Origin: an uncultured Phycisphaerae bacterium | Lineage (GTDB): Bacteria > Planctomycetota > Phycisphaerae > Sedimentisphaerales > Anaerohalosphaeraceae | Assembly (NCBI GenBank): GCA_937949545.1 | Contig: CALEDR010000039.1 | Span: 1-55,756, forward strand | Direction of reading: 5' to 3' | DNA length: 55,756 nt | Part shown: piece after piece, positions 5,074 through 23,995 of the stretch | Layout: each line of letters begins with the position of its first letter | Position numbering within the stretch: position 1 is the stretch's first letter | Translations under genes and position numbers: made by a program | The notes under the pieces: generated by a model | Databases searched by the model: none | What the model was told of the DNA's origin: nothing | The model's input: only the letters and a program-made list of their open reading frames with translations

Positions 5074-5119
5074 TTCCCGCTAAAACACCTCCAAAAACAA
5101 CTTCCTATTTTGTTTATCT

Positions 5120-5128
5120 ATTATAACA
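5120..5128 (-). promoter_or_regulatory. Extended -10 promoter element for hflX-gpsA
   Basis: On the minus strand this reads TGTTATAAT, a perfect extended -10 (TGn plus TATAAT). The -35 position is T-rich and does not match consensus, as is common for extended -10 promoters. Predicted transcription would start roughly 40 nt before the hflX TTG. Confidence 0.5.
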
Positions 5129-5197
5129 TTTCTTTGAAAAAAAAGAAAGGTTCACGGCAAAGACAGTTGAAATCACAGAGGAGTTCAGTCGCCGTCT

Positions 5198-6469
5198 TCA
5201 AAAACTATAACGGATTGCTGCATAAAGATTTGTGTTGTCTCGGAATTGTCCAAAAAAGGTGTTTTGGTAGTCGCCGAAAAAGATATTGGACCCCATCTCC
5301 ATTGACCAGCTGTCACTGGCTTTGTAGTGCACGTTCGGCCGAAGATACGCATCCTTGTCGGAGGGCGAATAATACCCAAAAAACGACAGCGTCAGGTTCT
5401 GATTCATCAACAGTTTCGTCAGCCGCCCCGTTACCACGTGGCGATACTCATCCCGCGTCATCCCCGGTGTCCGCTTGTACGCCTCATAATCCAGCATTTG
5501 CTCCACATAATACTGAATCCCTGCCGTAAAATCCGTTCCGATTTCCTGGGTATAGCCTACCAGATAGCGCATCTCGGAATTGGCCGTCATCGGGTCATCG
5601 CCGTTTTCATCGTCGCGCGACTGATAATAGCCGATTTCCGCATTCCCGATGCCCTTGCCGACCTGCCCGCGGACGCTGGCCCCATACACATTCAAATCCG
5701 GAAAGGTGGCGCGTCCTGCCGCATCCTGTCCGGCAGGACTTTTCCAGAATCCCTGATAACCATACAGCGCAAATTCATAATTGTTAATGTTTTTATACAA
5801 TCGCAAGGCAACTTCATCGTCCTGGAACCAGCGGTCGGGCTTGTCGGTATGAACCTTGGCATCGCGTCCGGCCGTTCGACCCAGATTGGCATTCCAATAA
5901 GAAATATACTCCCCCCGGATAAACCGGTCCCTGTCAAACTGGGGAGTATAAACCACATCCAGATTCGCCCAATCGCTGAACAGACTGACCTTAACCGCAT
6001 CCGACGGGGCTTTCAAGTATTCCACATCACGGCCGATGAAAAACGATTGCCAGTCCTTAGGAAACAGATCGTTGATAAACAGCATATCCCCGGTGCCCCA
6101 CGTGAGCACCTGCCGGCCCAGTTTCACATCCATCCACTCGCTGGGACGAAAGAACATCCACGTCTCCCGTGTCTGGTAGCGGCCCTTCTCCTGAACCCAG
6201 TCCCCGAAAACATCTCCTTTGTATTTGAACTCCGCCCACTCAGAATAGCTAAACAAATCCAGCTGGAAGCGGGATTCCATCACCGACATATCTTTTTGAG
6301 TGCGGTCATTCTGCAGCCGATAGCCGCCGCGAACCTCCCAAAAACCGTGAACCTCCGGCGGCAGAGCCCATTGACTCCAAAAAGATTGATGCTCCGTATC
6401 TTCGCCACCAGCCGCCCCAGCTGCCAAAACCAAAACAGCCGCCGCACATCCTCCCCAAATCTTTCTCAT
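5198..6469 (-). CDS. Outer-membrane beta-barrel protein (DUF1302/alginate-porin-like)
   Basis: The 423-residue protein starts with a signal peptide (about 1-22, ending AAGAAGG). The rest alternates aromatic and polar residues in the way of outer-membrane strands and ends in a terminal Phe (AAIRYSF), the usual barrel-assembly signal. The FKYKGDVFGDW, LGRQVLTWGTGDMLFINDLFPKDW and DVVYTPQFDRDR segments resemble the DUF1302-type porin that often accompanies an RND/MMPL exporter and a LolA-like protein. Its ATG overlaps the stop of the LolA-like gene (ATGA-type overlap), so translation is coupled. It is the last gene of the operon and probably the outer-membrane exit or acceptor for whatever the exporter moves. 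Confidence 0.7.
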   Translation of the reverse strand: MRKIWGGCAAAVLVLAAGAAGGEDTEHQSFWSQWALPPEVHGFWEVRGGYRLQNDRTQKDMSVMESRFQLDLFSYSEWAEFKYKGDVFGDWVQEKGRYQTRETWMFFRPSEWMDVKLGRQVLTWGTGDMLFINDLFPKDWQSFFIGRDVEYLKAPSDAVKVSLFSDWANLDVVYTPQFDRDRFIRGEYISYWNANLGRTAGRDAKVHTDKPDRWFQDDEVALRLYKNINNYEFALYGYQGFWKSPAGQDAAGRATFPDLNVYGASVRGQVGKGIGNAEIGYYQSRDDENGDDPMTANSEMRYLVGYTQEIGTDFTAGIQYYVEQMLDYEAYKRTPGMTRDEYRHVVTGRLTKLLMNQNLTLSFFGYYSPSDKDAYLRPNVHYKASDSWSMEMGSNIFFGDYQNTFFGQFRDNTNLYAAIRYSF

Positions 6470-7299
6470 CGCATCGCCTCCCGCGGCGGTCGCCGCAGAT
6501 ACCGTTCCGTAAACAAATCATCATTCAGCCCAATGTTATACTGCACATTACTGAACTTCATTTCCGTCGTGCTGCCGGTCCTCAAATCCCGAACAACGGA
6601 TTCCGTCACCGTCAGATACTCCACAGAACGCTCGCCTTCTTTGGCGGCTATCGGCTCAACCTTTTGGGACTCAATGACCCGATAGAGTACGCCGCTTTTA
6701 TCAAAATATTCCATCTTCATCGGAATAGAAGTCTGGCGGTCAATTTCCACCGTAAAATACGAAAACTCCACCGAAGAGGGATTTTTCGGTGTGTTCTTGA
6801 TGACGTACCGCTCCTCGGTTACACCAGCCAACTCGTGGACATCCTCCTCCAGACTGCGTCCGGAGACGTCCTCATAAAGAAAATCCGAACCGACAAAACT
6901 GGTGCGCTTATCCGAAGCGGCTATCCGATTGACCAAATCCAGCGAAGGCAGATACAGCCAGCGGTCATCATCCTTATCCAACGCCGAAAATTTGTGCACC
7001 ATAAAAACCATCCTCCGAACATCCGGCGGCTGGAGAAAATACACAAAGTATTTCTGATTGCCACCCTGACCGTTCTTGCGCAGGATGATAAACTCCCGGG
7101 TGCGGACGTTGCCGTTTTTGTCGGTAATCTTCATCGATACGGTGCTCTTGCCGTCCAGGCCCTGATAATAGGCCATATGATTAGCCCGCTGAACAATCTG
7201 ATCCACCGAGGGGATATCCGCCGGCTCCTGCGCCGTTGCCGGCAAAGCCGTCAATCCGGCCGTCACACAAACCGTCAGACAAAATCCGACTATCTTCAT
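6466..7299 (-). CDS. LolA-like outer-membrane lipoprotein-sorting protein
   Basis: The start at 7299 has AAGGAG 7 nt upstream and gives 277 residues; the longer frame to 7362 lacks a ribosome site. A signal peptide (MKIVGFCLTVCVTAGLTALPATAQ) precedes a LolA/LolB-like beta half-barrel (COG2834 type), with DGKSTVSMKITDKNG, FVYFLQPPDVRRMVFMV and DDRWLYLPSLDLVNRI segments typical of the sorting protein found beside MMPL exporters. It is expected to be periplasmic and to carry a lipid or lipid-like ligand between the inner-membrane exporter and the outer-membrane barrel. It starts 14 nt after the DUF2892 gene and overlaps the barrel gene by 4 nt. Confidence 0.8.
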   Translation of the reverse strand: MKIVGFCLTVCVTAGLTALPATAQEPADIPSVDQIVQRANHMAYYQGLDGKSTVSMKITDKNGNVRTREFIILRKNGQGGNQKYFVYFLQPPDVRRMVFMVHKFSALDKDDDRWLYLPSLDLVNRIAASDKRTSFVGSDFLYEDVSGRSLEEDVHELAGVTEERYVIKNTPKNPSSVEFSYFTVEIDRQTSIPMKMEYFDKSGVLYRVIESQKVEPIAAKEGERSVEYLTVTESVVRDLRTGSTTEMKFSNVQYNIGLNDDLFTERYLRRPPREAMR

Positions 7300-7313
7300 T
7301 CTGAATCTCCTTT

Positions 7314-7502
7314 CTATCCTTTTACACCAAACTTCCTTAATATCGTCATCATCGGACACCAATTGGTAAAGGCCGACTGCAGAAGATTGACTCCTACAAA
7401 GGCCGTAAACCAGAGCCAGTACAAGCTGTGCTTGTACGCCAGAATCACACTCAGCAGAACAAAAAAACCTGCCAGACCCCGCAACATTCGTTCTACCGTC
7501 AT
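7314..7502 (-). CDS. Small DUF2892 (YgaP-type) inner-membrane protein
   Basis: The 62-residue protein starts at an ATG behind a strong GGGAGGT box (5 nt). It has two hydrophobic segments (about 7-23 and 28-45) and ends with TNWCPMMTILRKFGVKG, the NxCPM...LxKxG signature of DUF2892. The same domain forms the membrane half of E. coli YgaP, where it is fused to a rhodanese. Here the rhodanese is on the separate CoA-disulfide-reductase protein of the same operon. It starts only 3 nt after the exporter stop codon. The Cys in the CPM motif is a possible sulfur-accepting or redox residue. The exact role of the domain is not known. Confidence 0.75.
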   Translation of the reverse strand: MTVERMLRGLAGFFVLLSVILAYKHSLYWLWFTAFVGVNLLQSAFTNWCPMMTILRKFGVKG

Positions 7503-7505
7503 AGT

Positions 7506-10358
7506 TTACCTCCCTTCTTCAGAAGATACAGATTTTTCTGATTCACTCATCCGGCAGGCCTGACGCCGCGACAGGATCCCGCACGTTAAGGCCAGCAGCG
7601 GAATCAATCCAAGACTAATCCAGGTTAATTTCCCCACACCGACCTGCCAGTATTGATGCACATTCAGCACAATCAAAACCACCGTGGAAAGCGAAATAAC
7701 CAGACAGAACCCGCAGTTGCAGGTCGGTCCGACCGGCTGGGCAATCGGGCGGAACAGAACTTTTTCGCCGATTTTCAGCAAAGCCGGCAGCACCAGCAGC
7801 GTAACCACACCCGAGAGGGCCATAATCGCACACAGAAAGATGCCCACGGTCTTATACGGCACCAGCGGAGCCGCCAGCAGCGGCAGAAAGCCGATGGCAA
7901 TCACCAGCACATTGCGGGTGATGGCCCGGGCCGGTTCGCCGAACATCTCTTCGGACACCTTCTCCCACGAACCGGCCTTTTTGTAATGCTCCCGCGCCCG
8001 TTCGAGGAAATGAATGGCAAAGTCCACCGCCATTCCGAGTGTCAGGGCGCTGAGCACTGCCACGGGCATATCATAATCCTTGCCCAGCCAGCCGATCAGA
8101 CCGTATATCATCACAATCGTGATGGTCAGCGGAATCATGCAAATCAGACCCCACAGCACGGAGCGGAACAAAAGCGCCATCATAATAAAGACCACCAGAA
8201 AACTGCCGAGGAACGACTGGAGCATCCCCCAGACCATCTTGTTCTGCCAGATGATATTGATATAAGTCAGCCCCGCCCACTGATGCTCCAGCGCAATCGG
8301 CGGCGGACTGTTCTTCCAGTATTCCTCCACCGCCCGCACGACCCGTTCCATATCCCGGTTGTCGCCGCTGGTCAGCTGCATCCAGATAACCGCTTCGGTC
8401 ATCTCCTGCGTAACCATGTGCCACAAATCCTGCGGACGATGGCTGTTCTGGTACTGGATCAGACATTCCGCGACCTGTTCGAGTTTGTCGGGAACCCGGA
8501 AACTTTCCGGTCGGCCGTCCACCAGTTCCTGATTGACCTTCATCACAATATCCGCAATGGAATTGCTCTTGCCGACCAGACCGGCCTTTTCCAGATGGGT
8601 CTGAAGCTCTTTCATCCAGACCAGAACCTCCGGCCTTTTGAACGGCCGAAGCCGCTCCCGCTCCACCCCGAAAAAGGCCTCCAGTTCCTGCCAGCCGTAA
8701 AAGTCCTGGTCCGAGGCCTGCTCCATCCGGGCCTGAGCAAACCGAATCATCTCTTCCATCAGGGCCGTCGCCGTTGAACCTTTGGCCGCCAGCTCCCGCA
8801 GTTTGTCCCCAGCCGAAACAGCAGCCTTCTCGATGGACGGCTCTTCGGCTCTGCGGATCTCCGCAAGCTGCCGGAGCCGCTCCTGGACTTCCTTGACAAA
8901 CTCCGCCTGGACCGGATGTTCATCCGGACTTCGAAGCACCAGATAAGCCATATACGTGCCGCCGAAGTGTTCATTGAGTGCGATGTCCGCCTGCCGAATC
9001 GGGTGACGTTTGGAGAACCATTTGACCGGATTGTCGTTGATGACAATCTGTGTAATGCCGTACACGGCCCCCGCCGACAGCAGCATCAGCACCGCCAGAA
9101 TCGGCTTGGCCTGCCGCACGGTCATTCGTCCGGTCCGGGCCAAAAGCCGCGTCAGCCAGGTCTGGGCCTCTTCCTGATGCACCGCCAGACCGAAATTCGC
9201 CAGGGTTCGCTCCGGAAGCAGCATCACATAAGCCGGTACAAACGTCACCGTAAAGACCCAGGCAATCATAATCCCAACCGACACAAACACGCCGAATACC
9301 TGCACCGGCGGGATCGGCGTCAGGGCCAGCGATAAAAAGCCCGCCGCCGAGGTCAGCGAGGTGTACAGCATCGGAACAAACAGAACATGCATCACTTCCA
9401 TAATGGCCTGTCGGCGGCCTTTTTCTCGCGTATAGCGGTCAAAAAACTCCGACAGAATATGCACGGAATCGACCACCGCTATCGGCATCAGAAAGATAGG
9501 AATCATCGAGCTCATAATATGAACCGGATAGCCGAAGCCGATGAGAAGCCCCATTGTCGAAATCACCGAGACCATCGCGATAATCATCGGCGACAGAATC
9601 AACGCCAGTTTGCGGAAGAACAGCAGCATCAGAAGAAAAATCGTCACCATCGCCAGCGGTGCAGAGACCGCCATCTGAATGAACATCTCCACCCCGAAAG
9701 TATCCTCCGCCACAGGAAGGCCGGTGATATGATACGACTCAGTTCCTCCCAGCTGCGCAATCTTCTTATTCAGGGCCGAATAGACGCGATAACTGAGGTG
9801 CTTATCTGTCAGCGGCAGCAGCAGCATCAGGGCCTTGCCGTCTTCGGATACCATCGTGCCACGCAGCAGCTGGTTGGACATCACCTTATCGCGAATTTCA
9901 AGGGCCTCCTCGTCCGTTTTCGGCGGCTGAGGCATCAGCCATTCAAACCGCACCATACCCCCGCCCCCTTCAATATGGTCAATCAGAGAAGGAGCAATGA
10001 TGTCCACTTCCACCACACCGGCCGGATGGCCCGGATGCTTCGGATCCTCCCACCGCAGCGTCTTGGCAAACTCCGTCAACTCATAAACACGCCCCAGCGT
10101 GGCCGCATTAAACACGCCCGCCGGATGTTTTTCATTAATCACTCCCAGCACCACGATGTCGCTCAAATCAAACCGCTGTTTGGTCTGATTGTGAAAAACC
10201 CGCACCGGTTCATCCGACGAAAGCATATTCTCCGGGTCTGTATCCACCCGAATCATCGGAATCATCCCAGCACAGGCAAGTGTAAACAGAACCATCGTCC
10301 AGGTAATCCATTGGGGATGATCTGCTGAGAACGCAATGATTTTATCTTTCAGTTCCAT
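7506..10358 (-). CDS. MMPL/RND-superfamily exporter with extra C-terminal CxCxxC segment
   Basis: The start at 10358 (MELKDK) has AAGGAG 5 nt upstream and gives 950 residues; the frame to 10382 would use a TTG without a ribosome site. The protein has two RND halves, each with one helix, a large periplasmic loop and a bundle of helices. The proton-relay type motifs are PIAVVDSVHILSEF in the first half and LGMAVDFAIHFLERAREH in the second. It belongs to the COG1033-type exporters, which usually work with LolA-like and DUF1302-like partners. After the last helix of the second half there is an added tail of two more hydrophobic segments, opening with CNCGFC (residues about 880-885) and containing two further Cys. 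The substrate is unknown; a lipid or hydrophobic thio-compound is possible. Confidence 0.88.
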   Translation of the reverse strand: MELKDKIIAFSADHPQWITWTMVLFTLACAGMIPMIRVDTDPENMLSSDEPVRVFHNQTKQRFDLSDIVVLGVINEKHPAGVFNAATLGRVYELTEFAKTLRWEDPKHPGHPAGVVEVDIIAPSLIDHIEGGGGMVRFEWLMPQPPKTDEEALEIRDKVMSNQLLRGTMVSEDGKALMLLLPLTDKHLSYRVYSALNKKIAQLGGTESYHITGLPVAEDTFGVEMFIQMAVSAPLAMVTIFLLMLLFFRKLALILSPMIIAMVSVISTMGLLIGFGYPVHIMSSMIPIFLMPIAVVDSVHILSEFFDRYTREKGRRQAIMEVMHVLFVPMLYTSLTSAAGFLSLALTPIPPVQVFGVFVSVGIMIAWVFTVTFVPAYVMLLPERTLANFGLAVHQEEAQTWLTRLLARTGRMTVRQAKPILAVLMLLSAGAVYGITQIVINDNPVKWFSKRHPIRQADIALNEHFGGTYMAYLVLRSPDEHPVQAEFVKEVQERLRQLAEIRRAEEPSIEKAAVSAGDKLRELAAKGSTATALMEEMIRFAQARMEQASDQDFYGWQELEAFFGVERERLRPFKRPEVLVWMKELQTHLEKAGLVGKSNSIADIVMKVNQELVDGRPESFRVPDKLEQVAECLIQYQNSHRPQDLWHMVTQEMTEAVIWMQLTSGDNRDMERVVRAVEEYWKNSPPPIALEHQWAGLTYINIIWQNKMVWGMLQSFLGSFLVVFIMMALLFRSVLWGLICMIPLTITIVMIYGLIGWLGKDYDMPVAVLSALTLGMAVDFAIHFLERAREHYKKAGSWEKVSEEMFGEPARAITRNVLVIAIGFLPLLAAPLVPYKTVGIFLCAIMALSGVVTLLVLPALLKIGEKVLFRPIAQPVGPTCNCGFCLVISLSTVVLIVLNVHQYWQVGVGKLTWISLGLIPLLALTCGILSRRQACRMSESEKSVSSEEGR

Positions 10359-10382
10359 CGCTGCTCCTTTCCGCTGCTCCAA

Positions 10383-12080
10383 TCAGACAACACAAAATTC
10401 TTCTTTTAACTGTTTGGCTGTTTGGGAATCCGCAGAATGCCGGCGGGCAATCGAACACCAGGTCTGGTATCCGCCGCTCAGGTTGCGCACATCAAAACCG
10501 TTTTGCAGAAGAATCCGCGTCGCGGCATAACTGCGCACCCCGACTCCGCAATAGGGATAGATCGTGCGGTCTTGGGGCAGCTCGTTCAGACGCTGCCGCA
10601 ATTCATCCAGCGGAATATGGACCGCGCCCGGGACATGGCCGCGCTTCCATTCCCCGTCCGTGCGGACATCTAGAACAAAATCCCCTTCCCGGAGGCTTTC
10701 AAAATGCGCCAACGGCATCGTCCCATCCAGCACGTTGGCCCCGACAAACCCAACCATATTGATGGGGTCTTTGCCGCTGCCGTACGGCGGAGCATATGCC
10801 AGTTCCAGCTCCATCAGGTCAAAAACGGTCATCCGCTTTTGAACCGCCGCTGCCAGCAAGTCGATACGCTTGTCCACCCCATCCCGGCCGACAATCTGGG
10901 CGCCCAGAATCCGCCCGTCCGGTTTGCTGAACAAAACCTTCATATGCAGCGGAGCCGCCCCAGGATAATAACCTGCATGATGGGCCGGATGCAGATAGAT
11001 TTTCTCGTAATGCAAGTTCGCTTTCTTTAAAGCCGCTTCGGTGGCCCCCGTCATCGCCGCCGTCAAGCCAAAGACCTTCAAAATGCCGGTTCCGATGGTA
11101 CCGCTGTACCTGCGATTCAGGCCGCAGATGTTGTCGGCCGCCATACGACCCTGCTTGTTGGCCGGTCCAGCCAGCGGTATCAAAACCGCTCCGCCGAGAA
11201 CCGGATGTTTTACCTCGACTGCATCACCAATTGCATAAATCGACGGGTCACTCGTTTGCAGGGTATCTGACACCTCTATCCCCCCCAAAACCCCCAGTTT
11301 CAAGTCGGCCTCTTTGGCCAGTTTTACTTCCGGCTTGACGCCGACTGATAAAATGGCAAAGTCGCACTGCAAAAGCATCCCGGATTTCAGACGTACGCGA
11401 AGAGCATCGGCCGTTTCCTCAAAAGCCGAAACGCCGTCATTCAGCCACAGGGCAACATTCTGCTGCTGCAAATGTTCCTGCAGATAGAAGGCCGTCTCCG
11501 GGTCCATGGCGGTGGGCAAAACGAATGGGGCCAACTCGACAACAGCCGTCAGCAGTCCGCGATGATGAAGATTTTCCGCCATTTCCAGCCCAATATAGCC
11601 CCCGCCGACAATTACAGCACGTTTGGGATGATGGGCCTGAATAAACGAATCAATCGCATCCGCATCCGGAACCGTGCGCAGGGTAAAAATTCGTTTCGAG
11701 CCGACTCCCGGAATCGGCGGTCGGAACGGCTCAGCGCCGGGAGAGAGAATCAAAAAATCGTAGGATTCCCTGTATGTCCTGCCTGTGCGGCGGTCCTGAA
11801 TCTCAATTTGCCTGTTTTCCCGTTCGATTCGAACGGCTTCCTGCTGAACCCGAACATCCACTCGGTACCGTTTGGAGAAGCTTTCCGGGGTCTGCAAAAG
11901 CAAATCCTGGCGATTGGCAATCGTCCGCCCCAAATAATACGGCAGCCCGCAATTAGCAAAAGAAATGTAAGGGCCCCGTTCAAGAAGGATAATCTCGGCT
12001 TCTTCATCAAGACGGCGAAGGCGTGCCGCCGCCGTCGCCCCGCCTGCTACACCCCCAACGATGACAATCTTGCGGCTCAT
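10383..12080 (-). CDS. CoA-disulfide reductase / polysulfide reductase with C-terminal rhodanese domain (CoADR-RHD type)
   Basis: The 565-residue flavoprotein starts behind GAGGAGG (7 nt). Residues 4-24 hold the FAD-binding VGGVAGGATAAARLRR loop. SFANCGLPYYLG places the active-site Cys at 44, as in single-Cys CoA-disulfide reductases. A second GGGYIGLEMAENL loop binds NAD(P)H, and a dimerisation domain follows. A rhodanese domain with catalytic Cys511 in YPYCGVGVRSY fills the C-terminus. Length and domain order match CoADR-RHD enzymes that reduce CoA-persulfide and polysulfide with NADH. It lies 22 nt after the ArsR-type regulator and 24 nt before the exporter. With the DUF2892 gene it makes a split version of YgaP (rhodanese plus membrane domain). 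Confidence 0.9.
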   Translation of the reverse strand: MSRKIVIVGGVAGGATAAARLRRLDEEAEIILLERGPYISFANCGLPYYLGRTIANRQDLLLQTPESFSKRYRVDVRVQQEAVRIERENRQIEIQDRRTGRTYRESYDFLILSPGAEPFRPPIPGVGSKRIFTLRTVPDADAIDSFIQAHHPKRAVIVGGGYIGLEMAENLHHRGLLTAVVELAPFVLPTAMDPETAFYLQEHLQQQNVALWLNDGVSAFEETADALRVRLKSGMLLQCDFAILSVGVKPEVKLAKEADLKLGVLGGIEVSDTLQTSDPSIYAIGDAVEVKHPVLGGAVLIPLAGPANKQGRMAADNICGLNRRYSGTIGTGILKVFGLTAAMTGATEAALKKANLHYEKIYLHPAHHAGYYPGAAPLHMKVLFSKPDGRILGAQIVGRDGVDKRIDLLAAAVQKRMTVFDLMELELAYAPPYGSGKDPINMVGFVGANVLDGTMPLAHFESLREGDFVLDVRTDGEWKRGHVPGAVHIPLDELRQRLNELPQDRTIYPYCGVGVRSYAATRILLQNGFDVRNLSGGYQTWCSIARRHSADSQTAKQLKEEFCVV

Positions 12081-12102
12081 TGACTGACCTCCTCAGAAGA
12101 AA

Positions 12103-12387
12103 TTAGGGCTCACAATGATTATAAACACAATGGAGAAGATGAATCACGTTTTTATTTTTGATGCGGTAAAAAACGTTAGTCCCTTCTCTGCGACATTCGA
12201 GAATATTCTTATCCCGCAGGATGGCCAGCTGCTGGCTGACCACGGCCTGCGGACAGCCAATCCGCTCCATAATCTTGTTGACGCAAAGTTCCTCCTCGTT
12301 GGCCAGCGCTTCAATAATCTGAAGCCGAATGGGATGGGCCGCCGCCTTCAGAACCGCCGCCGCTTTTTGCGCTAATCTTGCATCCAT
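12103..12387 (-). CDS. ArsR/SmtB-family repressor, candidate sulfane-sulfur sensor
   Basis: The 94-residue winged-helix protein starts behind AAGGGA (7 nt). It has the family HPIRLQIIEAL segment, a recognition helix in CPQAVVSQQLAILRDK and the ECRREGTNVFYRIKN wing. It has five Cys (35, 45, 65, 87, 92). Cys35 in ELCV, with Cys87 or Cys92 in the last helix (HCVYNHCEP), is placed roughly like the reactive pair of the persulfide sensors BigR and SqrR. Classic arsenic or zinc sensing cannot be excluded. Its position as first gene of the CoADR-RHD operon, parallel to ygaV-ygaP, favours sulfane-sulfur sensing. It is probably autoregulated through dyads at 12402-12413 and 12438-12451. Confidence 0.85.
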   Translation of the reverse strand: MDARLAQKAAAVLKAAAHPIRLQIIEALANEEELCVNKIMERIGCPQAVVSQQLAILRDKNILECRREGTNVFYRIKNKNVIHLLHCVYNHCEP

Positions 12388-12401
12388 AAATATATCCCTT
12401 C

Positions 12402-12451
12402 ATTCATAGGAATATCTATATATCTATATATCATTATATTCAGAAAAGAAT
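12402..12451 (-). promoter_or_regulatory. Two ATTC/GAAT dyads, candidate ArsR operators
   Basis: ATTC-N4-GAAT at 12402-12413 lies between the predicted transcription start and the ATG. ATTC-N6-GAAT at 12438-12451 fills much of the -35/-10 spacer. A run of TATATC repeats lies between them. Half-sites of this type are typical of ArsR-family operators. The location would block RNA polymerase, so autorepression is the simplest reading. Confidence 0.5.
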
Positions 12452-12462
12452 TTTCGGTTCAA
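12433..12462 (-). promoter_or_regulatory. Sigma-70-type promoter of the ArsR/CoADR/MMPL operon
   Basis: On the minus strand, TTGAAC (12457-12462) and TATAAT (12433-12438) are separated by 18 nt. This is one of the best consensus promoters in the window. It lies about 45 nt ahead of the regulator ATG. Confidence 0.65.
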
Positions 12463-12576: not shown

Positions 12577-14892
12577 TTAAAACTTATAGGTCATTGACAC
12601 TCCAACAGATGGGGCATGCGAACGGAATGCTCCGCTGGCACCATAATTACGTTTATTCAAATCCTTATCGAAGACCCCCAGCAGATTCATCCCGTCAATC
12701 CGGAAGGTTAGGTTTTGATTGGGTCGATACTGAAGGCCTAAATTCAGATAATAATTGCCCCGATAGCCGCGCTTCCAGTCCGGATCGATCGGATAGTACT
12801 CGTTTTGACTGAGCTGGTATTCATCAAAATCCTTCAGACCGCCGAATCCCCAGTAAATCCGCATCGACCCATCGGCAGTCCATTGTTCGCTCAGCTTATG
12901 CTGAAGAGTCAGCTTCGTTACATGATTGGACCACAAGGCCCCGTCATCTCCATAACCGTAGGCCTGCGAGGTAATAATAGTGCTCTGCCCCGGCGCCAGC
13001 GAAAAATCATACAATTTAGTAAATCCGTGGGAAACCGTGAATCGTGTCGTCTCTGTATGATAAGAGCCCTCCAATTCGAAACCCCAATTTCGCTGAGTCC
13101 CCACCGGCACGGCAGCCCCAGCGGCAGCCGAATACGAAATCAATTCCAAATTATAGTGCCAGAACAACGACGCCGCTAAATCCAGGTTCTCACTCTGGAC
13201 CCGTTCATACCGCAGCTCAACATTATCCAGAATCTCCGGGGCGCCGTCCGGCAGATTCATCAATGCATTCGCCCGCATTTCTTCTTCAAAATTGGTCCGC
13301 ACAGAACGCGCCCACAAAAGTTTGTAAACATCTCGTCTCGTAGGGGCATAAATCAGCGAAGCCCGAGGAGAAAACATCCGACTGCTGTAGGTATGATCAT
13401 CCATCCGACCGCCAAGAAACACCGTCCATTGATCACTGATAGTCCACTGGTATTCCCCAAACAGCGAATACAAATTTGTGGACCAGCGATTCATGGGAAC
13501 CCCGGCATTCTTCATCGCATCATCGGTAAAATCCATATCCGGATATCCATGGGCTTTTAATCCCAATTCATGATGCGAAACCTCCACCCCCAAGGCCGCT
13601 CGATGACGGTCATTGAAGGAATGGCGAATCATAGCTCGCCCATAGTATTCATCTTCTCGATAGACCTCGTTAAACCAGTTCACCGTATGGCGGCGATAAT
13701 CGAACAAATCATAACTGAAGGCCAAACTCAAATCCGTCTGTTCAGACAAATTGGTCTCATAGCCGACATATCCTGTCAGCTGCTGATACTGATAAAAATT
13801 TTGTTCCAGTGCCGATGACGCTTCATACTCCGGATACCAGATGATACGTGGATCCCCCCAGTCTCCCTCCCAATCCGGCGGAAAAATCGGCAGCCAATTT
13901 CCTGTCATGCGGCTCCGGATATAATCCGTCCATCCGTAAGGAACCCGCGCCAGAGCCCCTGTTGTCCAAGGAAAGGCCTGCCCCCCGCGCGTATAACGAA
14001 GCCAATAGGTCCAGTTTCCCTCATTATATTGAGCGAACAACTTGATCGGCGGAAGCCCCCGTGCGGCCGCCTGATCAGCGGGCATATTGATGCGGGTCAT
14101 CGCCTCCCCGGCAGCCGTACCGTCACCCGGCAGATACGGAGCCCCGGGAGATTCATTCCAGCCAAAATCAGACGTAGTCGGAAAATCAAATCCATAATGC
14201 ACGGGAGCATCATACTTGTCGGCTCCGTTGTACTTGCCAATGCCCACATAGGTAAACAGTCCGCCGTCTCCGTCAGAAAAACGTCGGCCATGTCGAATTT
14301 CCGTCGAATAGAACTCCTCCACCGCCCCGCTGCGGAACGTCACATCCGTCCCTTCAAACGTCAGCCCGCTGTGCGTAACAATGTTGATGACCATCGAAAC
14401 CGCCCCGGGACCGTACAACGCCGAGCCGGGCCCTCGGATAATATCAATATGATGAATATCCTTCAGAAGAACCAGGTCCCGTTCGCTGACAGCTCCATAA
14501 TGCATTCGGTCGTTCATCACTTTCCCATTCACAGTCAGCAGATACTTATCATCCCGGTCACTGATGATTCCCCGCAGCCCCAGATTATCCGGCTCCCAGG
14601 TATTGCGAAGCCACTGCAGGTTGGGCACATAGATATCCAGCAGTTCAAAAAGATTCCGAGCACCGGATGCCGCAATGTCCTTCTCGGTAATGGTTGTAAC
14701 AGACGCCGGCACCAGTCGCGGGGCCGACTGGGTCAGGGAGGCCACAGAGTCAATTCGGACCTCCATCAGCTGCTCCAGTGACATCTCAAAAAAATTTTCG
14801 GACGTCACCCCCTCCGTCTCAACAGCATACAAAATACCCGACAGACAAATCCACAAGACCCCCCTGATAACCCAATACCGATGACAGGACAT
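12577..14892 (-). CDS. TonB-dependent outer-membrane receptor
   Basis: The ATG at 14892 has AAGGAG 5 nt upstream and gives 771 residues with a signal peptide (about 1-24). A short SLEQLMEVRIDSVAS box precedes the plug domain (about 45-170), which contains ITEKDIAASGARNLFELL and the IDIIRGPGSALYGPGAVSMVINIVT plug signature. The rest is a 22-strand-type barrel ending in SMTYKF with a terminal Phe. It belongs to the group of receptors for chelated iron, cobalamin or oligosaccharides; the substrate cannot be read from sequence. It is transcribed divergently from a second receptor. No TonB/ExbBD genes are in the window. Confidence 0.88.
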   Translation of the reverse strand: MSCHRYWVIRGVLWICLSGILYAVETEGVTSENFFEMSLEQLMEVRIDSVASLTQSAPRLVPASVTTITEKDIAASGARNLFELLDIYVPNLQWLRNTWEPDNLGLRGIISDRDDKYLLTVNGKVMNDRMHYGAVSERDLVLLKDIHHIDIIRGPGSALYGPGAVSMVINIVTHSGLTFEGTDVTFRSGAVEEFYSTEIRHGRRFSDGDGGLFTYVGIGKYNGADKYDAPVHYGFDFPTTSDFGWNESPGAPYLPGDGTAAGEAMTRINMPADQAAARGLPPIKLFAQYNEGNWTYWLRYTRGGQAFPWTTGALARVPYGWTDYIRSRMTGNWLPIFPPDWEGDWGDPRIIWYPEYEASSALEQNFYQYQQLTGYVGYETNLSEQTDLSLAFSYDLFDYRRHTVNWFNEVYREDEYYGRAMIRHSFNDRHRAALGVEVSHHELGLKAHGYPDMDFTDDAMKNAGVPMNRWSTNLYSLFGEYQWTISDQWTVFLGGRMDDHTYSSRMFSPRASLIYAPTRRDVYKLLWARSVRTNFEEEMRANALMNLPDGAPEILDNVELRYERVQSENLDLAASLFWHYNLELISYSAAAGAAVPVGTQRNWGFELEGSYHTETTRFTVSHGFTKLYDFSLAPGQSTIITSQAYGYGDDGALWSNHVTKLTLQHKLSEQWTADGSMRIYWGFGGLKDFDEYQLSQNEYYPIDPDWKRGYRGNYYLNLGLQYRPNQNLTFRIDGMNLLGVFDKDLNKRNYGASGAFRSHAPSVGVSMTYKF

Positions 14893-15117
14893 AATTACTC
14901 CTTTTCTTCCTTTGCCCTGAAAACCTCCCCGACTGCCGTCCTTCCATTTGTTCCAAATCGTATTTTTGGACCTCCCCATTCAGTTTTTCAATCAAGGCCC
15001 TCCCAAAAACAGCCAACAACCCCCTTCAAAACCGCTCCCCCAACAATTTCTTTTCTCCCGGACGTCCGATAACAGAAATAAAAATTCGAGTGAACCCCAC
15101 TGTCTGTTTTGCCGATA

Positions 15118-15140
15118 CCCGAAGTGTTTCTTTGTTCGGG
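15118..15140. promoter_or_regulatory. Inverted repeat in the divergent TonB-receptor intergenic region
   Basis: CCCGAA (15118-15123) and TTCGGG (15135-15140) form a perfect 6-bp inverted repeat with an 11-nt spacer, about 25 nt before the plus-strand receptor ATG. It could be an operator or an mRNA leader hairpin. No consensus promoter is obvious in the 273-base intergenic region. Confidence 0.3.
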
Positions 15141-15165
15141 ATTCCGATTCTTCAAAGGGACCCTT

Positions 15166-17139
15166 ATGATGTCGGCGACGAAAAAAAAGAGGAGGCAAGC
15201 GGCGCAATGGATTGTGCTTTTTATCCTCCGTTCAGCGTTCGGAGCAGACCCTGCGGAAAACTTAGCATCCTCCGACCTCTTTAATCTCTCCCTCGAACAG
15301 CTGCTGAATATTGACATCTCTGTCGTCTCCAAAAAAGAAGAGACTCTCTTCGAAGCGCCGGGAATCGCTTCCGTGGTCAAACGGGATGAATGGACCCTGT
15401 TCGGCGACCGGTCCCTCTTTAGCCTGATGCAGCGGCAGCCCAGTGTTTATACCCGAAACTCCTTTGTCTTTTCCGACAATCTGGCGGGCTTCCGCGGGAA
15501 TATGTCCACCCACGCAGAAATGCATACCCTCATCCTGATCAACAACCGGCCCGTTCGCGAAAGTGCTCTCGGTTATAACTTTCCTTTGTATATGGCCTAT
15601 CCGCTGGAGGCCCTGGAAAGCGTCGAAATAATTCGCGGACCCGGTTCCGTGCTCTATGGAACCAACGCCTTCACCGGGGTGGTCAATCTGAAAACCCGAC
15701 GTCCTCCCGATAAACCGCAATGGACCCTGTCCGGTATGGGCGGCTCCTGCGACTATTACCAAACCGGTTTCTCCGGCGGAGGACGATTCGGCTCTCTGGG
15801 CCTATTCGGCACCTTTCAATCGCTCGGCCAGCAGGGTGAACCCTACAAAATGTTCGACGGATTGGGAGTTCCCGGTCAAGACAACCGACACAGCCGAAAC
15901 ATTTCCGGCACCCTGCATCTGTCCTACGAGGGCTTTACAGCCGACCTTTTCGCCGCCGACATCGACACCTATTCCATGGGGGTCATGCCATTCTGGTCCA
16001 ATCCGCACCACGCCTCCCAAACCAGCCGCCTGTTTGCGAATGTCGGCTATCGGCACACCCTCACCGAATCGGTCGAACTGGAAATGAATCTGACCTACAA
16101 CCAGCAGAAAGACAGTCTGTCCAGCCCTGCTCCGCGGAAAATCGGCACCAACACCGAGGACTGGCTGGGCGAAATCACCCTCTACGCAGAACCCTCGGAA
16201 AACCTCAATCTCGTGTTCGGATATCTGAAAGAACAACGCCGAAATTTCCGCGCCGATGAGGATCACTTTCAGTCTATACCGCCCTACAAATACGTTCCCC
16301 AAAGTGCCTATGCCCAGGCGGATTACAAAATCACATCGTGGGCCAAACTCATCACCGGAACCCAATGGAATGAATCCGGGCAGGGAAAAGAAGATTTTGT
16401 CTTCCGTCACGGCCTGATTCTGACCCCTTGCCAACGCTGGGGAGTCAAACTGCTCTATGGAGAGGCTTTTCGGGCCCCGGTGGCAATGGAGTCGGACCTG
16501 TATGACCCGCCGATTCTGACAGGAAATCCAAATCTGCAGCCGGAAACCATCGCCACCTACGATGCACAGATTTTCTACCACACCGGGAAAACCTTTGCCG
16601 CCCTGACAGTCTTTCAAAGCACAATCGAAAAATTAATTATTTACGATACCTCCGTCTCGCCGTGGTCCTATATGAACGGCGGCAAACAGACCTTCAAAGG
16701 CCTCGAATTCGAATGGAAGCACTATCTGTCCCCGCACTGGCAGATTTTGGGGTCGTATCTGCACCAAGAAAATCAGGCCGATGCGGGGTTGAACCCCACC
16801 GTCGTGCCGGAAAACCTCTTCAAAGCAGGAACCGCCTATGAATGGCCAAAAGGGTCAATCGGCATCTTCTTAACCCATTTCGGCAAACCGCCGCAAATCG
16901 ACTCCCCGCTGAATATCAATCCCAAACCGGACGCCGTAACCCTTTTGTCCGTCAACCTGCAAATAGACATCTCCGAATGGATGGGAATGACAAAAGGACG
17001 CTCCATCCTGCTCCTCAAAGGAGAAAACCTTCTGAACGACAAGGAATTCGCCCCCACATTCGCCTATACCGGCTCCCCCAACTCTTTCCCCTACGGCGCC
17101 GGCCGAACGTTCTATGCCGGCGTAAAAATGACATTCTAA
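15166..17139 (+). CDS. TonB-dependent outer-membrane receptor
   Basis: The ATG at 15166 follows AAGGGA by 5 nt; a second ATG follows at once. The protein has 657 residues. A basic, hydrophobic N-terminal signal (about 1-27) ends before GADPAENL. The conserved LSLEQLLNIDISVVSKKEE box and a plug domain follow, with VEIIRGPGSVLYGTNAFTGVVNLKT. The barrel ends in GVKMTF with a terminal Phe. It is shorter than the divergent neighbour and only moderately similar to it, so the two are not recent duplicates. The substrate is unknown. It converges on the arabinofuranosidase locus across a bidirectional-looking terminator. Confidence 0.88.
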   Translation: MMSATKKKRRQAAQWIVLFILRSAFGADPAENLASSDLFNLSLEQLLNIDISVVSKKEETLFEAPGIASVVKRDEWTLFGDRSLFSLMQRQPSVYTRNSFVFSDNLAGFRGNMSTHAEMHTLILINNRPVRESALGYNFPLYMAYPLEALESVEIIRGPGSVLYGTNAFTGVVNLKTRRPPDKPQWTLSGMGGSCDYYQTGFSGGGRFGSLGLFGTFQSLGQQGEPYKMFDGLGVPGQDNRHSRNISGTLHLSYEGFTADLFAADIDTYSMGVMPFWSNPHHASQTSRLFANVGYRHTLTESVELEMNLTYNQQKDSLSSPAPRKIGTNTEDWLGEITLYAEPSENLNLVFGYLKEQRRNFRADEDHFQSIPPYKYVPQSAYAQADYKITSWAKLITGTQWNESGQGKEDFVFRHGLILTPCQRWGVKLLYGEAFRAPVAMESDLYDPPILTGNPNLQPETIATYDAQIFYHTGKTFAALTVFQSTIEKLIIYDTSVSPWSYMNGGKQTFKGLEFEWKHYLSPHWQILGSYLHQENQADAGLNPTVVPENLFKAGTAYEWPKGSIGIFLTHFGKPPQIDSPLNINPKPDAVTLLSVNLQIDISEWMGMTKGRSILLLKGENLLNDKEFAPTFAYTGSPNSFPYGAGRTFYAGVKMTF

Positions 17140-17202: not shown

Positions 17203-20200
17203 TTACTGCTTGTTCACGGTAATCACCCCCGCAGAATAGGCCGGCATCCGCAGGCGAAGGGTCTGTCCGTTCACGCCGACAACCTTGGCCTGCACGCGAA
17301 CAGCATTCGGCTCCGCCAGCGTGTTGCGGGCATACAGACTGCCCGGAGCTACATACTGCATCACGGCCGTCTGAGGTATAAAGGAACCGTCAATCTCGAA
17401 CGCCAGGGATTTATCCGTCGGGTCCGGATTGACCACACGAATCGTCAGCGTCCGTCCATCCCCCGACAGCAGACTGACTGCATTCAGATTCGTATCCTCG
17501 CCGCTCATCTGAACCCGATAGGGTGCATAATGATCGCGCCACAGTTTCATCACCACATAATTCGGAGCCGCAAACCATCCGGTATGGTCAAAATTGATAA
17601 AAGCATTGTCCCAGCCGCTGGCCGACGTGTGCCGCAGGAACAAGGCCGGCCCCCCAATTTTGAAATGGGCACCCTGCCGCTCATATACATTCAGAATCCC
17701 ACCGGCATACAGACCCGTCCGCCAGTCCGTACTCTGGGCATTCCATTCCGAGTTGTAAATCTTGATGTCCGGATTGGCGGAATTGGCAATCCGGTTGGCC
17801 AGATTGAGCAGATAATTCTCGTAGTTCACCGGCCCGGATTTGAAGTTGCTCGGATCTTCGTAATGATGCACACTGATAAAATCAATCAGCGGCGCACAGC
17901 CGTTCAGAATCGCCTGATTCCAGCTCTGGTCATAGCCGCCGCTGCCGACCGCTATCAGATAAATCGGCACACCCAATTCATCTGCCTTGGCCCGCATCGC
18001 CGGAGCAAACAGCTGTACACGGGCAATATAGGCCGCCGAACCGGCTGCCCAGGTCTCGTTGTCAAGTTCCCAATAGACCACATGGTACGGTTCTGGATGG
18101 CCGTTGGCCGCCCGCACAGATCCCCAATAGGTCGTTTGGGCATCACCATTGCAGTATTCCATCCAATCGAGGGCATACTGCAAATACGTCTCCGGCGTAT
18201 CCGGACTTAATTTCCACTGCGCCGGAGCCCCGCAGGCACTGTTCAAAACACCCGTGTTGATGCATATCAGCGGTTCAGCGCCAATCCGCTCACACATCCG
18301 CAGAAACTCATCCGTCCCAAATGAGTTGGTATCCTGGTCATCCCACATATACGCCGGGTATTTCCGCCTCTGATGCTGCGGTCCGATTCCGTCTTTCCAC
18401 AGATACAGCGAAGCAAAACAGCCGCCCGGCCAGCGAATAATCGGCGGACGCAGCGCCTCCACGGCCGCCAGCAGGTCCGGACGATAGCCGCCCGTCGCCA
18501 GAGCATCCGCTCCCATCATGCTCACCTGGTCAAGAATCACGGTCCCCGGCCCCAGCAGCACAATCCGCAGCGAACCGCTGTTCGTCGAACCCGTCGAAGC
18601 AATCTGGAACGGATACTCCGCCCACTGAGCCGTTGGGGCCGGCAAATCCGCCTGCCCAAGCACGGTCGAGCCGTTCCTCAGCTCAACCCGAACCCCGGCC
18701 GGCAGCGTCCCCTTCATCCACAGCGAGCCGCTGTATGCCTGCGGGATAAACCGAAAGTTATCCTGCTGAAGACACGCACCCGCGGACGGAGCCTCAATCT
18801 TTACGCTTACATTATCATTGAGGGCATCGGATACCGTCGAAGCCGTGCCGTCGCCGAAGAACGTCCAGTTTTTCGCCGCAAATTGTCCGGACGGCAGGGT
18901 CGGCAGACCGCTGAACAGCACGGTCGAATTCGGAATTGAAACAACCTGGATGTTCCGATAGCGGGCCTGGGTCGCCCACGTCCCTACCCCGACCATGCCG
19001 GTCAGGTGCGGGCCGCTGCTGTCGGTATAGTCAAACAACAACGCATCATTCAGCCAAACCCGGTAGCGATTGCCCTCGCAGCGGATGCGAATGGAATACC
19101 AGACGCCGGTCGAAATGCTGCCGGAAACAAAAGAAGTCACAACGCTTCGGCCGCCGTTGACTTCTTTTTCAATCGCGTGCTGCGTATTGTTCCAGCCGCC
19201 GATATTGCACCAGTAGAAATTGTCCGCATCGGACGCCCGAAACAGAATCAAAAACGCCTCGTTGCCGCCGTCTTTTTTCGCTTCGAGCGTCAATTCATAA
19301 TTACCCCATGATGGATCGCCGAACTCCATATGCACATCCGTTGAAAGCGACGACTGCACCAGTTCATCCCCTTCAATCGACCAAAGCCCGCCGCCGCTGG
19401 AGGCGTCCAGTTCAAAACTGCGGTTCCAAACCAACTCCCCCCACAGACCCCCGTTGGCCGAATGATAGATATGTTCGAGAAAATGCCCATAGACCTTCTC
19501 ATCAATCGTATTGACGACAACGGAAGGATTGACGGCAAAGGGCTGGGGCGAAATCTGAATCGACCGCTCGTACAGGTCTTCCTGATACATCAGCGTATCC
19601 CGCAGCCAGTCCCCCGCCAGCAGCTCCAAATCCAGCGGCGGCTCCGTCGCCAGCCAGACTCGGCTCAAAATCGCCAGGTCCTCCAAATCCACAACACAAT
19701 CCAGATTGTAGTCGGCCTCCACATAGCCCCAGACACCGCAGACATCCGCATAAATAGCCGCCTCAACCTCATAGAGTCCCCCGTTATAGGCGGGGTCGCT
19801 GCTGGAAACCGTATGAACGATTCGTTCAGTCGTTCCCAACTGCCCGACATTCGCAATCCCCACCGTCACCGTCTGCGGCTGATTCCAGTCAGCAGGAGTA
19901 AAGGTGAGCACAATCGGCTGTCCGCCGCCGCTGCCGACGGTCAGAGAAGCCGGCGGCTGAACCGTAACAACCACATTGGAAACCGGTGCAGCCAGAAGCT
20001 GAATCGTATAACTGTCGGTTCGAGACGGCTGACTGATAAACAAAACCGTCCGTCCGTCGCTTTCAGTAATCCGAACCAGCGGCTCGCTGAGGGCATTCGG
20101 TCCCCAAGCCGCATGCTGGGCAATTTCGGCAGCAGACAAGGCCGAATCCCAAATCCGAAACTCATTGATGGAGCACTGCACATACGGGTCGGCATTGTAA

Positions 20201-20799: not shown

Positions 20800-20856
20800 A
20801 ATACCCCCAATCGCAAGAAATAATCCGTTTTCATTCCCCCCGCAGGATACACAAAT

Positions 20857-20891
20857 CCGCTCCGGCACGGACTTGAGCCGTGCCGGAGCGG
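20857..20891 (-). terminator. Perfect 14-bp intercistronic hairpin
   Basis: Bases 20857-20870 pair perfectly with 20878-20891 around a 7-nt loop. On the minus strand the stem is followed only by a short T stretch (GGATTTGTG). It lies between the LamG/dockerin gene and the last GH51 gene. It may be an attenuator that lowers expression of the distal GH51, or an mRNA 3'-end stabiliser, rather than a full terminator. Confidence 0.55.
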
Positions 20892-20936
20892 CTAAAACCT
20901 CAACTCACTAAAACCAGGTTGGCAAAATCCTGCTGA

Positions 20937-23012: not shown

Positions 23013-23140
23013 AAGAACAACCTCCCAAAAGAAATCGTTTTGGTTTACGGCCTTGAAAACACACCCTCCAAAGCCGTTTGCTTGAATTACCCTGTTTCCT
23101 CGAAAAGCAGCTTCTTGACTCTGCTGAAATTACAACCTTT

Positions 23141-23995
23141 TCAGGACCGCTTGCGTCCCAGCATCAGAGCCCCGAGTCCCAGCAGCATCATCGTCGCCGG
23201 CTCCGGAACCAGAAACTCACTCGGACTCAAAGCCGCATCCGAAAACCGAATGTCATCCATATAGCCGTTGATATGGTCCACAAACCAGGTATTGTACCAG
23301 CCGCGTCCGAAGGTCCAGTTGGCGCTAATCAGGGCCAGCGAATTATCTCCGCTGCCCATTGGCGTCTCCGCCGCTAACACCCAGCCGGCACTGCTGTTGG
23401 GAGTTCCGTTAACCCACAGCCGAAGCGTACTGCCGTCGCTGGTCGCCGCAATCCGGTACCACTGATCCTGCTGCATCGTAAACGTCGAAGTCGCCAGATA
23501 CCGGGACCCATCCGCCGTTCGGAAGTTAATCCGGAAATAGTTATCCCATGTCTTCTGCAGATACAGAATCGACTCCGGATCCACGCCCGGATCCGCACTG
23601 CCGTCACGGCCGATAAATGTCTGCCAGCGATTATCGGAAATCCCCCCGACCAGCTTGACAGCGCATTCAATCGTCCACTGCGACGGAGCCCAACCCACCA
23701 GACCTCCATCAAAGGAATACCCGTCCTGATGATGGTCGGCATTCCGCATCGCAAGCCCAACCCCCGTCGGCGTATGGTCTGTCCACGACGGGCCTCAGTA
23801 GTCATTCCAGCCCCGCATCATATAGTGATTCACCGTGTCATAGGTCCCGCCGGAACCCTCTGGCTGCCCAGCCGGGGTAAACGGCTGACCAGCCACACCA
23901 TCCTCAAAATCCCAGTAGGCAATCGTCGTGGCCAAACTCGCCGCACTCATCGAAAGCATCAAAACCAATACCATTTGCATTTTCGTTTTCATCAT
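23141..23995 (-). pseudogene. PEP-CTERM lectin-like exported protein interrupted by in-frame TGA
   Basis: A start at 23995 (GGAGGT box, followed by a second ATG) opens a signal peptide and the beginning of a concanavalin/LamG-type domain (TIAYWDFEDGVAG). TGA at 23795-23797 is codon 67, directly after GWNDY. The same frame is then open to the true stop at 23141, and the rest is the remainder of the lectin-like domain followed by a textbook PEP-CTERM tail (VPEPATMMLLGLGALMLGRKRS). PEP-CTERM is the sorting signal processed by an exosortase; no exosortase is in the window. The downstream half lacks a ribosome site. TGG or CGA in place of TGA would restore a 284-residue protein. It is either a pseudogene or a base error. 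Confidence 0.8.

Follow-up and report, generated by a model that had tools for sequence, protein, structure and literature searches.

A conserved variant of the AmeABCD-type HAE3 export line associated with reactive sulfur in a Phycisphaerae bacterium

The window analysed here is a stretch of 55,756 nucleotides (nt) from an uncultured Phycisphaerae bacterium (assembly GCA_937949545.1, contig CALEDR010000039.1). On its minus strand, at positions 5198-12387, six genes follow one another in the order ArsR regulator, CoADR-rhodanese flavoprotein, MMPL pump, DUF2892 protein, LolA-like protein (PF17131), and DUF1302 barrel. We conclude that this operon is a real and conserved variant of HAE3 export lines of the AmeABCD kind, and that it is associated with reactive sulfur. 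In unrelated lineages, the exporter is repeatedly placed beside genes for sulfide:quinone oxidoreductase (SQR) or CoADR-rhodanese, an arrangement that suggests a role in removing or managing reactive sulfur. Our best explanation, which we hold to be about as likely as not, is that the operon encodes an export line leading from the inner membrane to the outside, with an apolar, membrane-soluble compound as its cargo and a tie to reactive-sulfur metabolism; the evidence on both sides is given below. The features of the operon are (aa, amino acids):

12433..12462, minus strand, candidate sigma-70-like promoter, TTGAAC-18 nt-TATAAT (consensus scan, 10/12)
12103..12387, minus strand, ArsR/SmtB-type regulator, 94 aa (PF01022, HTH_5, 43.7 bits)
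10383..12080, minus strand, CoADR-rhodanese flavoprotein of the CoA-disulfide / CoA-persulfide reductase type, 565 aa (PF07992, PF02852, and PF00581)
7506..10358, minus strand, MMPL/RND pump of the HAE3 kind, 950 aa (PF03176 in two stretches, 105.7 bits)
7314..7502, minus strand, stand-alone DUF2892 / YgaP-like_TM protein, 62 aa (PF11127, 57.3 bits)
6466..7299, minus strand, LolA-like periplasmic carrier, 277 aa (PF17131, 173 bits, cut-off 30)
5198..6469, minus strand, DUF1302-type outer-membrane barrel, 423 aa (PF06980, 23.7 bits, barely over the cut-off of 23.2)

Operon structure

The six genes listed in the initial annotation were all found on the minus strand, and each family was matched in Pfam. 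The tight spacing claimed there was confirmed with refined starts: the genes are separated by 22, 24, 3, and 14 nt, and the last junction is a 4-nt overlap, as in an operon-like run. The start of the MMPL gene was refined to the ATG at 10358 and that of the LolA-like gene to the ATG at 7299, both of which are preceded by AAAGGAG. Since position 7302 reads AGA, the LolA-like gene cannot start there. The complete gene order was also found in L062 (genome G251, same genus), in the near relative L102, and in SG8_4 (L130). Five of the six genes are present in the same order in L104, where a DUF2892 match is missing, and in L121, where an ArsR match is missing. At the level of sequence, the assignment of the six genes to one operon-like run is supported.

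A single strong promoter had also been proposed for the run. The best-scoring −35/−10-like pair does precede the ArsR gene, about 45 nt 5' of its start, and it has the top score among 12 such sites in 8.7 kb (6.9 ± 2.4 in shuffles); as a consensus match it is a candidate and no proof of a promoter. Nine terminator-like sites were found (10.6 ± 3.2 expected by chance), none of them within the intergenic gaps of the run. The region upstream of the ArsR gene, compared by eye in an alignment of the window and three relatives, is AT-rich and possibly contains the operator. The gene downstream of the DUF1302 gene, hflX, follows after 124 nt. By eye, an AT-rich hairpin and a TATAAT-like box were seen ahead of it (5074-5197), and hflX may have a candidate promoter of its own.

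The export line and its closest characterised relative

The pump, the carrier, and the barrel correspond to the three-layer, lipid-type export line of the initial annotation; Pfam matches and structure models identified an MMPL protein, a LolA-fold carrier, and an outer-membrane barrel. The best NCBIfam match of the pump was the HAE3 family TIGR00921 (192.8 bits, cut-off of 351.9 missed). Its C-terminal extension (7506-7721) carries a CxCGxC motif and two further cysteines (Cys 880, 882, 885, 926, and 935 in total), and a CxCxxC tail was found on 45 of 127 pumps, mostly at Planctomycetota loci. The DUF2892 protein contains a CP motif, which is shared by 46 of 50 DUF2892 proteins. The N-terminus of the LolA-like protein was judged by eye to be signal-like. 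Besides PF17131, this protein matched DUF1329 (PF07044, 29.1 bits, cut-off 23.1), whereas the match to the Pfam lipoprotein carrier LolA (PF03548, 17.7 bits) missed the cut-off of 23.6. Its structure model (predicted local distance difference test score, pLDDT, 84.1) was most similar to LolA3 of Porphyromonas (9tp6; Z 27.2, 232 residues, 2.1 Å), and the DUF1329 protein 4z48 also aligned (Z 25.6, 228 residues, 2.4 Å). In the barrel model (pLDDT 88.6) we counted about 18 strands; the segment between strands 5 and 6 is conserved, and the model resembles AlgE and the Occ porins (Z about 22). Both models agree with a hydrophobic carrier and an outlet in the outer membrane; similarity of fold says nothing about the cargo.

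The closest characterised system found is AmeABCD of Castellaniella defragrans. It combines an HAE3 pump with an outer-membrane protein of the DUF1302 type and a periplasmic protein of the LolA superfamily (DUF1329), and its deletion lowers monoterpene tolerance and increases the accumulation of Nile Red (PMC6394551). The window operon shares with it the HAE3-type pump, the DUF1302 barrel, and a LolA-like protein with a DUF1329 match and fold, as judged from families and folds rather than from the Ame sequences directly. In contrast to AmeABCD, none of the six window proteins is recognisable as the COG4447 (AmeC-like) partner (searched with Pfam at E ≤ 0.01, not with COG models), and genes for ArsR, DUF2892, and CoADR-rhodanese are added; related loci adjoin SQR. 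Because the COG4447 partner was not seen and the HAE3 cut-off was missed, we regard the line as a variant and not as a member of the AmeABCD kind.

The similarity of the pump to the hopanoid transporter HpnN is weak (NCBIfam, 91.3 bits, cut-off 751.85), and HpnN is described as operating without dedicated periplasmic or outer-membrane partners (PMC6394551). In Porphyromonas and Prevotella, iron-dependent operons of the type TetR-ABC-ABC-MMPL-lipoprotein-sorting are reported (PMC10434189). As in the window, an MMPL gene lies beside a LolA-like gene, and P. gingivalis LolA3 (9tp6), which may or may not belong to such an operon, is the best structural match of the carrier. These operons differ in their TetR and ABC genes, and the passages covered here do not name DUF1302, CoADR, or SQR for them (PMC10434189).

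Distribution and core of the exporter

LolA matches (E ≤ 1e-10) were obtained in 38 of 392 Planctomycetota genomes; 16 of them are close relatives with at least 51% identity, and the next best match reaches 35%. A scan of genome contigs, of which the best 80 of at least 586 matching stretches were taken and which are thus not a random sample, yielded titles of Planctomycetota, Desulfobacterota, Pseudomonadota, Nitrospinota, Hydrogenedentota, and Cloacimonadota members. In a profile search, the exporter was detected in 52 of 277 genomes of a Desulfobacterota sample; in a Gammaproteobacteria sample, it was present in 5 of 166. The samples are drawn from the phylum of Desulfonema magnum (L119) and the class of Aestuariicella hydrocarbonica (L179), their centres, and are named accordingly; the centre genomes G000, G392, and G395 are included in the drawn samples. 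The 148 loci collected contained 12 duplicates (L064, L065, and L178 were retained from the L064-L066 pairs), leaving 136 non-redundant loci, to which L270 does not belong. The 52 exporter genomes of the Desulfobacterota sample contributed 51 loci (L212-L262; G393 is represented by L109), 43 of which are non-redundant. Neighbours were counted with tblastn because the open reading frame caller, from whose input L064-L066 had been left out as copies on one contig, missed some LolA genes under long antisense frames.

On the same strand and within 4 kb of LolA, an MMPL gene was found at 126 and a DUF1302 gene at 130 of the 136 loci; within 6.5 kb, DUF2892 was found at 49, ArsR at 44, and MarR at 12. 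The position of DUF2892 depends on the lineage: it follows the MMPL gene, precedes it, or follows the DUF1302 gene. The initial annotation had divided the operon into a split YgaV/YgaP module, consisting of regulator, rhodanese, and DUF2892, and an exporter. This partition was abandoned. At 44 of the 49 exporter loci with DUF2892, a CoADR match is missing from the stretch. In G127, an ArsR 54% identical to that of the window is located immediately upstream of the MMPL gene in the absence of CoADR, and the CoADR gene elsewhere in this genome adjoins another ArsR (25% identity to that of the window). In G157, a member of the same genus, a CoADR gene with 76% identity has hflX and gpsA as its neighbours, like that of the window (L077:1067-2764 and onwards), and neither LolA (none at E ≤ 1e-10) nor MMPL (≤ 28 bits) nor this ArsR (≤ 34% identity) was detected in the genome; the control G251 gave 95% and 96%. 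From the CoADR-free DUF2892 loci, G127, and G157, we conclude that ArsR and DUF2892 belong with the exporter and that CoADR is the added gene; since G157 retains CoADR alone, CoADR has no need of the exporter. G157 and the window genome form a natural comparison pair for exporter loss. DUF2892 is found together with a rhodanese domain within one protein in E. coli YgaP, and the window protein shares the DUF2892 domain; it differs from YgaP in being a stand-alone protein of 62 aa encoded after the exporter pump rather than the rhodanese enzyme. DUF2892, known from YgaP, thus accompanies an exporter and at times SQR.

The conserved core consists of the regulator, the HAE3-type MMPL pump, DUF2892, the LolA-fold carrier, and the DUF1302 barrel, a widespread and apparently undescribed putative envelope export machine for greasy molecules. 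In titles and abstract openings, with thin coverage of subscription journals, no exporter module with SQR or CoADR was found in the literature, and nothing was found on MMPL with lipoprotein-sorting and DUF1302, MMPL with DUF2892 and ArsR, or a LolA-like protein with MMPL and aryl polyene, subscription journals being mostly uncovered here, too.

CoADR-rhodanese beside the exporter

The window enzyme matched Pyr_redox_2 with 187.1 bits and, in its C-terminal part, Rhodanese with 69.1 bits. Its nearest solved structures are 3icr (609 bits, residues 2-544), 3nta (566 bits), which we take to be Npsr, and the CoA-persulfide reductase 8a56 (514 bits), all matched near full length. Its cysteines C44 and C511, presumably those of the active site and of the rhodanese domain, align with cysteines in 3icr and 3nta. 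The cut-off of the curated CoA-disulfide reductase model TIGR03385, which spans only the 439-residue reductase, was missed (502.7 vs 578.8 bits). In contrast to the solved enzymes, this one is encoded between the genes for an ArsR regulator and an MMPL exporter.

Ten of the 16 Planctomycetota exporter genomes contain a CoADR gene (E ≤ 1e-60), which is near the exporter in three: G000, G251 (same genus), and G341 (divergent). Among the genome-contig loci, linkage was observed in L102, L104, L121, and L130 (Phycisphaerae and kin) and in L177 (Cloacimonadota). L241, where the rhodanese match is missing, and L153 (61 bits) were left out of the CoADR-rhodanese counts. In the CoADR tree, the Phycisphaerae enzymes form one clade (branch support 100/99), in which six of seven rows are exporter-linked, the seventh being G157; the enzymes of G341 (L072) and L177 fall outside this clade, the latter on a long branch. 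The G341 enzyme is a fusion of CoADR, rhodanese (RHD), TusA, and DsrE. The CoADR proteins of L072, L079, and L093 comprise 812-827 aa compared with 565 in the window; TusA and DsrE were demonstrated for L072 only. The geometry of the linkage varies between lineages (upstream, downstream, or divergent), and on a quick LolA tree, four or more changes of CoADR linkage are needed to account for the well-supported branches. Since the linked enzymes are scattered over the CoADR tree, the linkage arose more than once. The neighbourhood search thus bore out a recurrent linkage, in the Phycisphaerae clade, in G341, in L177, and in L219 of the Desulfobacterota sample. The condition named in the initial annotation as refuting it, a linkage unique to the window's genome, does not hold, because reactive-sulfur enzymes adjoin the exporter elsewhere, too.

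SQR beside the exporter

At L161, an SQR-type flavoprotein is encoded between ArsR and MMPL, the slot held by CoADR in the window. SQR-type genes were found near the exporter at 9 of the 136 loci and, divergent from MMPL, also at L270. When same-strand neighbours at the 43 Desulfobacterota-sample loci were clustered without a choice of families, only three families reached at least three loci: SQR (8), ArsR (8), and methyltransferase (5). SQR was detected in 13 of the 277 genomes, and 10 of these 13 contain the exporter, compared with 52 of 277 overall (Fisher odds ratio 17.6, p 4.6e-6; relatedness is ignored, the SQR query was taken from a linked locus, and the centres were counted even though they had been chosen for having the exporter). 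In 8 of the 10 genomes with both, SQR is located within 6 kb of LolA; in G581 the two are about 480 kb apart, and in G491, which is not among the eight, MMPL and DUF1302 matches lie on the SQR contig. The gene order at the SQR-exporter loci is variable, and at least five changes of SQR linkage are forced by well-supported branches of the quick LolA tree.

The two SQR-type cysteine motifs are kept in 9 of 10 aligned proteins; L258:9425 is without them and was excluded from the counts as not SQR. The L259 protein matched the solved sulfide-quinone reductase 3hyv with 316 bits, and that of L252 matched SQRs with about 114 bits and FCSD_central; the other seven SQR-type proteins were compared by alignment only. 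For L161, the one protein so compared, the best NCBIfam model was the type III selenoprotein SQR (98.1 bits, cut-off of 525 missed).

The ArsR regulator

The window ArsR contains cysteines at positions 35, 45, 65, 87, and 92. Its best NCBIfam match was the general metalloregulator model HTH_metalloreg (86.8 bits); the BigR equivalog was matched below its cut-off (66.6 vs 155 bits). Among solved chains compared by sequence, BigR (3pqj, 51.5 bits) was nearest, followed by 6o8k, which we take to be SqrR. In the alignment with BigR and HlyU, the alpha-2 sensor position of the window protein is occupied by Glu instead of Cys, and C87 and C92 are its helix-5 cysteines. The claim that the operon has a sulfur-sensing, YgaV-like regulator is thus not borne out for the window: its ArsR lacks the BigR/HlyU-type cysteine pair, and a standard BigR/YgaV sensor was rejected for it because of the missing alpha-2 Cys. 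The pair is complete in 14 of 46 exporter-linked ArsRs (Desulfobacterota and Pseudomonadota by title or sample). In 17 others of the 46, of the Planctomycetota type and including that of the window, it is replaced by a CxxxxC pair in helix 5 without an alpha-2 Cys. Of the seven SQR-linked ArsRs, six (L246, L253, L255, L256, L258, and L259) contain neither cysteine, and in the seventh (L161) the alpha-2 Cys is missing. For HlyU, a tetrasulfide formed by the cysteine pair with persulfides and no reactivity toward peroxide are reported (PMC10509353). As only 14 of the 46 linked ArsRs have the pair, their cysteine patterns support a sulfur signal for one branch of exporter-linked regulators only, not for those adjoining SQR. 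ArsR is replaced by a MarR-type regulator at 12 of the 136 loci (L137:6830-7315 and 11 others); the best named match of the one member scanned was FabT (51.3 bits, cut-off 200).

A response to thiophilic metals or metalloids, with ArsR sensing a soft metal via C35, C87, and C92 and a metal- or arsenic-organic cargo, would agree with the metalloregulator match, with the occurrence of both C87 and C92 in 17 of the 46 linked ArsRs, with the CxCxxC tails of 45 of the 127 pumps, and with a methyltransferase near 11 of the 136 loci. However, 6 of these 17 ArsRs have Ser or Thr in place of C35, no metal or arsenic gene was recognised among the scanned recurrent neighbour families (some clusters being unannotated), and SQR and CoADR-rhodanese are no metal genes. 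We consider this explanation improbable.

Evidence against an association with reactive sulfur and alternative explanations

The Glu at the alpha-2 position of the window ArsR, the cysteine-free ArsRs next to SQR, and the caveats of the Fisher test speak against a tie between the exporter and reactive sulfur, and further observations point in the same direction. In 7 of the 10 Planctomycetota genomes with both, CoADR is unlinked to the exporter, four times distant on one contig and three times on separate contigs. In the Desulfobacterota sample, CoADR is present in 180 of 277 genomes and, judged from the exporter neighbourhoods, lies beside the exporter once (L219, a CoADR-rhodanese of 33% identity). 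G157 retains CoADR without this ArsR or the exporter. SQR was absent at E ≤ 1e-15 from all 17 Planctomycetota searched (the 16 exporter genomes including that of the window, and G157) with a query that did find SQR in the Desulfobacterota and Gammaproteobacteria samples; SQR is therefore an unlikely source of sulfur in the window's organism and was dropped as a candidate for it. In the Gammaproteobacteria sample, 51 of the 53 genomes with SQR (of 166) are without the exporter, so that SQR has no general need of it; two genomes have both, adjacent in one. L274:6245-8230 (G514) contains an ArsR-DUF2892-SQR row in which an exporter match is missing and the DUF2892 protein ends with CCTTA; this row ties regulator, DUF2892, and SQR together but sets all three apart from export. 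Finally, none of CoADR, SQR, OsmC, DUF302, and peroxiredoxin was found at 106 of the 136 loci, in 55 of which the available stretch stops within 6.5 kb of LolA on one side.

The frequent separation of CoADR from the exporter and its survival in G157 would also be expected if the CoADR-rhodanese gene were merely adjacent to the exporter and shared its promoter by accident. Against this, the linkage arose in several separate lineages with differing gene orders, and the same slot holds SQR elsewhere. In view of the recurrent CoADR and SQR linkage, the co-occurrence of SQR, the repeated changes of linkage on the LolA tree, and the clustering of neighbours without a choice of families, chance adjacency was rejected; we give an accidental arrangement hardly any credence.

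A more serious competitor is a line of general efflux that would rid the cell of apolar toxicants or displaced lipids, in which the redox enzymes are merely co-regulated and the cargo is free of reactive sulfur. AmeABCD, with its part in monoterpene tolerance and in the efflux of Nile Red, is a precedent (PMC6394551). The neighbours indicate mixed redox stress (OsmC at 5, DUF302 at 8, and peroxiredoxin at 5 of the 136 loci), the MarR-type proteins that replace ArsR resemble FabT below the cut-off, and the 106 loci without any of the five scored redox families fit this explanation as well. On the other hand, SQR and ArsR are, at 8 loci each, the most frequent same-strand neighbours outside the core in the Desulfobacterota sample, 10 of the 13 SQR genomes of this sample contain the exporter, and neither SQR nor the CoADR-RHD-TusA-DsrE fusion would be predicted next to a generic toxicant pump. 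We regard general efflux as a possible explanation, but a less likely one than an export line tied to reactive sulfur.

Proposed mechanism and cargo

In the export line tied to reactive-sulfur metabolism, ArsR would repress from the AT-rich upstream region and would be released by a thiol-reactive signal at the helix-5 cysteines C87 and C92. By analogy to AmeABCD, the MMPL pump may lift the cargo from the inner membrane, the LolA-like protein may ferry it over the periplasm, and the barrel may serve as the exit. CoADR-rhodanese would reduce leftover persulfides or polysulfides in the cytoplasm with NADH, so that one signal would switch on reduction and expulsion together.

An apolar cargo is assumed because AmeABCD is the nearest characterised system found, and the recurrent neighbours SQR, CoADR-rhodanese, and, once, TusA-DsrE point to reactive sulfur. 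Among cargo classes, we favour hydrophobic species of sulfane sulfur or hydrophobic products formed under sulfur stress; that the cargo itself is a sulfur species we consider rather doubtful, and the hydrophobic thiol or persulfide named in the initial annotation is a guess. Being apolar and soluble in membranes, S8 and long polysulfanes are natural candidates. The boldest reading is that MMPL pump, LolA-like protein, and DUF1302 barrel form a route dedicated to the export of zero-valent sulfur dissolved in the membrane (S8 or organic polysulfanes); we consider it unlikely. In such a route, SQR or incoming polysulfide would load the membrane, and CoADR-rhodanese would reduce the sulfur remaining inside. 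If true, it would be a protein mechanism that moves elemental sulfur through a Gram-negative envelope. For the question of how hydrophobic sulfur passes through this envelope, the module provides a concrete gene set, and a testable role would be available for many genes annotated "MMPL", "outer membrane lipoprotein-sorting protein", or "DUF1302" (at least 586 matching stretches). For Chlorobaculum, a report from 2025 states that elemental sulfur has to pass the outer membrane, calls the mechanism unknown, and tentatively proposes vesicles (PMC12285230).

Further neighbouring genes

An OsmC-like gene was located upstream of MMPL in L110, L117, L121, L126, and L139, in four of the five within the ArsR-MMPL interval. 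A peroxiredoxin is encoded between LolA and DUF1302 in L075 and L076. The class I methyltransferases near the exporter (L116, L129, L131, L134, L135, L137, L242, L244, L253, L258, and L106) include three weak matches, and the one scanned was Methyltransf_31/UbiE-like; a thiol methyltransferase is a guess. In L141, L142, L143, L148, and L157 (cable bacteria and Desulfobulbaceae by title), a protein of about 200 aa is encoded ahead of LolA, the L143 copy of which had no match in Pfam, and in some of these loci insertions part MMPL from LolA. In the window, two divergent TonB-dependent receptors (12577-14979, minus strand, and 15109-17139, plus strand) adjoin the operon. They are followed at 17203-26140 (minus strand) by proteins with an arabinofuranosidase domain and with Laminin_G_3/Ig domains, which suggest that the host is a polysaccharide degrader.

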